DNA from: Candidatus Saccharimonadota bacterium
GTDB taxonomy: Bacteria > Patescibacteriota > Saccharimonadia > Saccharimonadales > Saccharimonadaceae
Assembly (NCBI GenBank): GCA_017405265.1
Contig: JAFRAS010000008.1
Coordinates: forward strand, 62,001-126,000
Reading direction: 5' to 3'
DNA: 64,000 nt
The notes beneath the pieces are model-generated. The model had not been told where the DNA came from and did no database searches. It saw only the letters and a program-made list of their open reading frames with translations. A program made the position numbers and the translations under genes. The first letter of the stretch is position 1, and each line of letters opens with the position of its first letter. Positions 45,818 to 46,134 of the stretch are shown in pieces.

Positions 45818-45903
45818 GGAAGGATGGCCGAGTGGTTTATGGCACTGGTCTTGAAAACCAGCAAGCGCAAGCTTCACAGGTTCGAATCCTGTTCCTTCCG
45901 CCA
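45818..45903 (+). tRNA. tRNA-Ser (TGA)
   Basis: An 86-base class II tRNA with acceptor GGAAGGA/TCCTTCC, anticodon loop CTTGAAA (anticodon TGA), a long variable arm (AAGCGCAAGCTT) and encoded CCA. Confidence 0.96.
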
Positions 45904-45924: not shown

Positions 45925-45961
45925 TTTGGCACCGTATTGCTTCGCAATTCGGTGCCGGCAC
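45925..45961 (+). repeat. 37-bp palindromic repeat, copy 1 (tRNA-Met acceptor mimic)
   Basis: A 37-base unit that folds as GGCACCG-T-ATTGC-TTC-GCAAT-T-CGGTGCC (12 pairs and one T-T mismatch). Its first 12 bases are the same as the 3-base flank plus first 9 bases of the downstream tRNA-Met. Confidence 0.9.
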
Positions 45962-45978
45962 AAGTGGACGCTAAAATG

Positions 45979-46015
45979 TTTGGCACCGTATTGCTTCGCA
46001 ATTCGGTGCCGGCAC
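45979..46015 (+). repeat. 37-bp palindromic repeat, copy 2 (tRNA-Met acceptor mimic)
   Basis: Identical to copy 1, separated from it by 17 bases of unrelated sequence. Confidence 0.9.
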
Positions 46016-46020
46016 TCGTC

Positions 46021-46048
46021 CGAAAAGAAGAGCGAGCTCTTCTTTTCG
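46021..46048 (+). repeat. 28-bp palindrome with 13-bp perfect stem
   Basis: CGAAAAGAAGAGC-GA-GCTCTTCTTTTCG. It lies between repeat copy 2 and tRNA-Met. No T-tract follows, so it is not a standard terminator. Confidence 0.85.
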
Positions 46049-46057
46049 TCCTCGTTT

Positions 46058-46134
46058 GGCACCGTAGCTCAGTTGGTTAGAGCGTGGGACTCATAAGCCC
46101 AAGGTCACTAGTTCGATCCTAGTCGGTGCTACCA
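46058..46134 (+). tRNA. tRNA-Met (CAT), elongator type
   Basis: A 77-base tRNA: acceptor GGCACCG with CGGTGCT (G1-U72 as in some elongator tRNA-Met), D-arm GCTCAGTTGGTTAGAGC, anticodon loop CTCATAA, T-arm CTAGTTCGATCCTAG and encoded CCA. The lack of a C1-A72 mismatch argues against initiator. A CAT-anticodon tRNA-Ile2 (lysidine-modified) cannot be fully excluded from sequence alone. Confidence 0.93.

Follow-up and report, generated by a model that had tools for sequence, protein, structure and literature searches.

Short two-hairpin elements at tRNA-gene ends: an apparently undescribed family in a Saccharimonadota genus

Introduction

tRNA genes are classic insertion sites for integrase-carrying elements. 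The attachment scars of such integrative elements resemble the element described here in being partial tRNA-end duplications that adjoin a tRNA gene; unlike them, it is a conserved two-hairpin unit without an internal integrase gene, and it is found at tRNA 5' ends too.

In integrons, attC is a boundary-core hairpin with a cassette-internal complementary arm, in which an unpaired spacer separates an outer 7-bp stem from an inner stem of 4–6 bp. The first hairpin of our element (SL1, in 35 aligned copies) is likewise built from a boundary core and an internal complementary arm with an unpaired spacer, and, as with integron cassettes, units accumulate in tandem at one site and the site is restored. 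In contrast to those cassettes, the boundary core is a tRNA end that differs from tRNA to tRNA, a second hairpin is present, the units are non-coding (bar one ambiguous insert, in L209), and the integron integrase IntI is above cut-off in none of 170 genomes. In Y1 elements, a guide dinucleotide on the 5' side of a hairpin base-pairs with the element end that lies 3' to it, and to our knowledge these elements make no target duplication. The palindromic MITEs derived from IS200/IS605 (PATEs) share with our element a short, non-coding, two-hairpin form and guide-like dinucleotide pairing. It differs from them in having a tRNA-end repeat of 7–11 nt (36 of 41 cases, and a filled/empty pair of sites), and Y1 transposase is present in just two of 22 genomes. 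By the IntI and Y1 results, our element is not an integron cassette, nor does it derive from IS200/IS605, although SL1 is attC-like.

RtT repeats are structured, lie downstream of a tRNA gene and carry a duplicate of its 3' end. RtT is described as a structured repeat of the E. coli tyrT operon (PMC8250186). Our element is also a structured repeat carrying a tRNA-end copy beside a tRNA gene; it differs in occurring at many tRNAs and at both ends, in its length of ~76–80 bp, in its tailored closing arm, and in having no Rfam match other than to tRNAs across 20 element loci.

The element came to light in a 64,000-nt stretch of DNA (the window) of a Candidatus Saccharimonadota genome (G000, the host genome). 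The window holds one complete and one truncated copy of a genus-wide, non-coding tRNA-end family. The family appears to be undescribed: in the open-access literature consulted, we found no description of it. What sets it apart is the occurrence of tiny non-coding units at the exact ends of many tRNA genes, on both sides, each unit matched to its own tRNA.

A complete and a truncated copy ahead of tRNA-Met

The features of the locus are listed below in window coordinates. R1 is a covariance model derived from a pair of units (the Met unit of the window and a Lys unit of the host genome), and R2 is a refined model.

45818–45903, + strand: tRNA-Ser (TGA), first of the tRNA pair (ARAGORN and Rfam)
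45925–45936, + strand: direct repeat TTTGGCACCGTA, copy 1
45928–45956, + strand: truncated first copy, SL1 only, with GGCACCG arm, inner stem-loop and closing arm CGGTGCC (repeat and fold; partial R1 match, L003 1611–1656)
45979–45990, + strand: direct repeat TTTGGCACCGTA, copy 2
45982–46057, + strand: complete 76-nt element, its last base being position -1 of tRNA-Met (R2 match, 86.9 bits)
45982–46010, + strand: SL1, acceptor-mimic hairpin of 7 bp, a T.T mismatch and 5 bp, with loop TTC (folds; covariation over 35 copies)
46011–46020, + strand: linker GGCAC-TCGTC (RY/RY covariation)
46021–46048, + strand: SL2, A/T-rich hairpin of 12 bp with a 4-nt loop (inverted repeat, folds, helix 2 covariation with 95.2% of cells paired)
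46049–46057, + strand: right end TCCTCGTTT, adjoining tRNA-Met (right-end motif CTCRYTT conserved in the alignment)
46055–46066, + strand: direct repeat TTTGGCACCGTA, copy 3, made up of 3 nt of flank and tRNA-Met +1 to +9
46058–46134, + strand: tRNA-Met (CAT), the gene whose 5' end is copied (ARAGORN and Rfam)

A preliminary description of this DNA had reported two identical 37-bp units that share 12 bases with the flank and 5' end of tRNA-Met, each closing with CGGTGCC as an acceptor-like hairpin. Coordinates and shuffles confirm the units (45925–45961 and 45979–46015, spacing 54 bp), and each folds as described (GGCACCG-T-ATTGC-TTC-GCAAT-T-CGGTGCC). With as many as 3 mismatches allowed, a 32-mer has two occurrences in the window and none in 100 shuffles, which excludes chance for it, and the remaining 20 GGCACCG/CGGTGCC 7-mers of the window are scattered, none of them forming a comparable unit. 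The spacer between the Ser and Met genes folds with far higher stability than shuffled versions of it (z -6.2; none of 200 equally stable). The same description had pictured a minihelix with a hairpin in place of the tRNA body. The acceptor mimic, SL1, stands; the single minihelix does not, since a second hairpin at 46021–46048 had been overlooked.

The second copy thus reads SL1, linker GGCACTCGTC, SL2, TCCTCGTTT and then tRNA-Met, and the dinucleotide AC of its linker (46014–46015) is complementary to GT at 46054–46055. The first copy lacks SL2, and its remnant extends to 45978. At E ≤ 0.5, the complete copy is all that R2 matches in the window; its score is that of a unit that itself trained both R1 and R2. 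Neither ARAGORN nor Rfam calls a tRNA over the units, so that a recognisable tRNA body is absent; the Rfam matches in the window are tRNAs and a ribosomal protein L10 leader, and no family covers the unit. The leader (RF00557, 47109–47234, - strand) is expected upstream of L10/L7-L12 genes. The genes surrounding the repeats are ordinary: upstream lies an ORF that we take to be L1-like ribosomal protein, and downstream a convergent one that we take to be L7/L12-like.

Distribution in the host genome, genus and order

In the host genome, tRNA-Arg (TCG) and tRNA-Lys (CTT) are each preceded by a 78-nt unit of the same plan and other sequence. SL1 of these units opens with the 5' end of its own tRNA (GCACTCG and GGTCCGG, respectively), has a closing arm altered to match, and carries two mid-stem mismatches. 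The preliminary description had proposed a search for further copies beside other tRNA genes, and R1 has matches in 60 of 170 genus genomes at E ≤ 0.1 (37 of the 108 of good quality), the best match outside the host genome being at 8.7e-15. With R2 at E ≤ 0.01, 50 of 294 genomes of the order have matches: 30 (of 43) belong to the host genus, many of them with strong matches, 10 come from the rest of its family and 10 from outside that family, both of these groups with weak matches. We did not take the weak matches beyond the genus as members, except in G354, a genome of another genus of the same family, which has units at two tRNA-Glu genes, both in the expected orientation. An exact-sequence search with the window unit returned its own genome only (one genome among 60 and one among 174). 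No autonomous version of the element was seen.

The pattern of the inner hairpin occurs at seven palindromic loci besides the window in a public genome collection, and at none in viral contigs. Such tRNA-less occurrences bear on the earlier proposal that the repeats derive from tRNA, as six of the seven have no tRNA in the fetched stretch (up to 8 kb) and the seventh has a tRNA-Lys ~85 nt away. The sequence around all seven lacks the other parts of the element; we therefore set them aside as members, and they do not count against a tRNA origin.

Fold and covariation

We aligned the 35 R1 matches at E ≤ 1e-6 by fitting them to the model. Pairing was seen in 91.6% of 825 cells, a fraction that leans towards the model because the alignment was fitted to it, compared to 63.8% in shuffled and 45–54% in slid alignments. 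Both helices covary: 22 of 24 pairs vary on both sides, with a score of 0.690 as opposed to 0.184 when shuffled and at most 0.130 when slid. A third pairing, which the first model did not contain, links the two bases that follow GGC with the two that precede the final TT (2 bp, RY/RY). The combinations seen are GT-AC (13), AT-AT (8), AC-GT (4) and GC-GC (3), and both pairs are standard in 28 of the 35 copies. A T.T mismatch lies next to the outer SL1 stem in 26 of 35. Wobble pairs occupy 7 of 419 SL2 cells (1.7%) and 206 of 2,443 cells in tRNA acceptor stems at the same loci (8.4%), as raw counts, and this scarcity in SL2 favours pairing at the DNA level.

By inspection, the two ends of the unit (A7-GTA... 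and ...CTCRYTT) do not form an inverted repeat, and we rejected a terminal-inverted-repeat transposon (a MITE of a DDE transposon) on that ground. SL2 as an intrinsic terminator was rejected because 5'-side copies have no U-run behind it.

Placement at tRNA ends and copying of the adjacent tRNA

We classified 69 matches by position, namely 67 R2 matches, the Met unit of the window and the Arg unit of the host genome; 3 overlapping or weak matches were excluded. In 32, all in forward orientation, the end of the element is at most 8 nt (in one subset mostly 0–1 nt) from a tRNA 5' end; these include L196, which is 0 nt from tRNA-Met though a tRNA-Ser lies 7 nt upstream. Nine reach a tRNA 3' end in reversed orientation, 5 are tandem copies upstream, and 1 has the opposite orientation. 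The other 22 do not abut a tRNA; most lie within 150 nt of one, and 4 are in tRNA-less loci. By simple arithmetic (46 tRNAs in 0.8 Mb), a random position would be equally near a tRNA end in ~0.2% of cases. A held-out set of 20 further loci, unused for R2 except for repeated genomic units in L282 and L284, gave 27 matches, of which 25 were counted and 2 in L285 excluded. Here, 10 point forward at a 5' end (in one case judged from the sequence at a contig end) and 3 are reversed at 3' ends, while 3 are tandem, 7 reversed at 47–242 nt past a 3' end, 1 opposite and 1 tRNA-less.

tRNAs with 5'-side units include Lys, Met, Arg, Glu, Ala, Ile and Cys; those with 3'-side units include Gly, Gln, Pro and Leu. 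In 3'-side copies the linker, T.T mismatch, TTC/TAC loop and RY motif are all on the antisense strand. At two loci (L207 and L280), tRNA-Glu (CTC) has units on both flanks, each pointing at the gene. Where a TATAAT was found in fetched loci, it was usually 7–10 nt ahead of the tRNA, so that 5' leaders would be very short.

SL1 is a copy of the adjacent tRNA end paired with a closing arm internal to the element, and the tRNA-proximal end of the element is set by SL2 and the 2-bp RY/RY pairing. The first 9 nt of SL1 are identical to the adjacent tRNA end at all nine positions in 23 of 40 units (0.1% in a foreign-tRNA control) and at eight or more in 32 of 40 (control 3.5%), which bears out the earlier claim that the acceptor mimics derive from the neighbouring tRNA. 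The repeated stretch starts at +1, and its upstream extension is chance-like.

Copying at the 3' side is seen more widely. Among 244 tRNAs in fetched loci, a sample biased by being drawn partly with a tRNA-Ser 3' end, 48 have their 15-nt 3' end (CCA included) recopied downstream and none has it copied upstream (foreign-end control 0.35%). Some of these copies are full acceptor minihelices with terminal CCA. In a sample of RF00005 tRNAs from G034, a strict 3' copy was found at 1 of 33. When matching was relaxed, 5' copies appeared as well, at Cys, Lys and Arg; overall it gave 15 matches among 277 tRNAs where 6.9 were expected, so that single relaxed matches are weak.

Filled and empty sites

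A filled/empty pair was found at tRNA-Arg TCG in two loci ~92% identical over 1.5 kb. The promoter TATAATAATGGCAT is common to both; in L127 it is directly joined to GCACCCGTAGCTCAG, and in L206 a 76-bp unit is interposed and GCACCCGTAGC is duplicated as an 11-bp tRNA-end repeat. The pair shows gain or loss of one 76-bp unit, and either direction is compatible. Units behave as if gained or lost with duplication of a tRNA end, which supports part of the preliminary description. At tRNA-Arg TCT, one unit is present in L239 and two in tandem in L236, and there is none in 10 other genomes.

A larger insert of ~1 kb lies at tRNA-Gly TCC (L209:1581–2540), bounded by copies of the tRNA-Gly end, and is missing from L205, which is 97.8% identical. 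It encodes a 268-aa ORF bearing an HExxH motif, for which the sole Pfam match is below cut-off. Relatives of this ORF occur in 21 of 170 genomes, and a tRNA is present in the fetched stretch at 3 of 19 other loci. The insert may be cassette-like. However, a second copy of the ORF in the same genome lies directly at the 3' end of tRNA-Gly CCC without an element, and exchange between two tRNA-Gly loci explains the insert too.

Explanations considered

We see about an even chance that the elements are DNA-level insertion units, probably mobile. A single strand would fold into SL1 and SL2, and a recombinase or transposase would join the folded strand to a tRNA end, with the acceptor-arm sequence as the shared core. 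As the tRNA end is restored, the host would retain a working tRNA. Strict orientation, with inversion on the 3' side, favours such a DNA-level element over an RNA decoy; the RNase P decoy of the preliminary description would not predict inverted copies at 3' ends. Weighing against the DNA reading, the copies are bounded by mature tRNA ends, and RNA processing defines the same ends. Further points against it are the outcome of the enzyme searches (Y1 transposase in two of 22 genomes, IntI above cut-off in none of 170), the lack of any autonomous version among the units seen, and the 22 of 69 matches that abut no tRNA. A serious rival, which we rate as somewhat unlikely, is an RNA-level function: SL1–SL2 would be a pre-tRNA leader (5') or trailer (3'), excised by RNase P or 3' processing, and would help to process the tRNA, control transcription or act as a small RNA; its boundaries look like mature tRNA ends. 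Such a function agrees with the strong covariation of both helices, with copies that start and stop at mature ends, with a unit length near that of a tRNA, and with the TATAAT near 5' elements, which where found is upstream of the element, so that element and tRNA would be co-transcribed. It agrees less well with the scarcity of G-U pairs in SL2, with the patchy presence of units among related genomes, or with the inversion at 3' sides, which puts the reverse complement of linker, loop and mismatch in the sense RNA.

Repeated integration and deletion of ordinary integrative elements at tRNA attachment sites could also leave tRNA-end copies as scars. Many genomes do have further copies of the tRNA-Ser 3' end behind the gene, a 7.8-kb serine-recombinase island occupies one tRNA-Ser site, and L209 has its extra gene-bearing insert between tRNA-Gly-end copies; but over many tRNAs and species the unit is conserved in its size, its two-hairpin fold, its RY pairing and its linker motif, as random leftovers would not be, 5' ends are used too, and the SL1 closing arm fits each tRNA, which makes scars improbable as the explanation. 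More doubtful still is a collapsed tandem duplication of the tRNA, its body lost and its acceptor stem left. Although both SL1 arms resemble acceptor arms of the adjacent tRNA, the D, anticodon and T arms leave no trace, SL2 and linker are shared between unrelated tRNAs, the T.T mismatch hardly varies, and the whole unit is either present or absent in a near-identical pair. Chance palindromes or an assembly artefact are barely credible: the assemblies are mostly multi-contig, but the element occurs independently in many genomes, covaries, and is strictly placed at tRNAs.

Within the DNA-level reading, we tentatively entertain, at clearly less than even chances, a cassette system in which the mature ends of tRNA genes would serve as attachment sites for single-strand-folding DNA units, with the tRNA restored, tandem stacking, mirror-image insertion at either end of the acceptor stem and an undescribed recombinase. 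Mobility of the units would imply an undescribed enzyme able to recognise tRNA ends at the DNA level, and perhaps a means by which bacteria with small genomes capture genes. Should the units instead act as RNA, they would be a new and widespread kind of pre-tRNA leader and trailer.

Recombinases and other structures near tRNA genes

At E ≤ 0.001, Y1 transposase (PF01797) was detected in the two genomes noted above, in 1 of them above cut-off, and there was none in the host genome. The integron integrase model (TIGR02249), above cut-off nowhere in the genus set, had sub-threshold matches in 159 of the 170 genomes, which are presumably Xer-type; five element-bearing genomes (G182, G207, G028, G136 and G124) had no match to it even at E ≤ 0.001. 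At least one Phage_integrase match is present in each of 22 genomes, and the element-rich G137 and G116 have one only.

The serine-recombinase island at tRNA-Ser (L130:6461–14308) encodes a large serine recombinase and has a two-hairpin unit at its far end. In the host genome, a tyrosine-recombinase gene lies ~440 bp from tRNA-Leu (C7:91243–92203), possibly as part of an integrated element.

Larger structures were also seen behind tRNA genes. In L092, L105, L106 and L131, a three-way-junction block of more than 100 nt, with apparent compensatory changes, lies downstream of tRNA-Ser and ahead of its copied 3' end. In the host genome, larger structured blocks lie downstream of tRNA-Glu, Lys, Ala, Lys, Glu and Arg (L042, L041, L049, L036, L054 and L052, respectively). 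In some of these host-genome blocks, three hairpins are enclosed by a closing stem, after which come variants of TGGAAGGGC...GCGAAGCGATAC or TGGAAGGGCAAACTCGCGAGC...CCTACC; the blocks probably represent a second class of element trailing tRNA genes.
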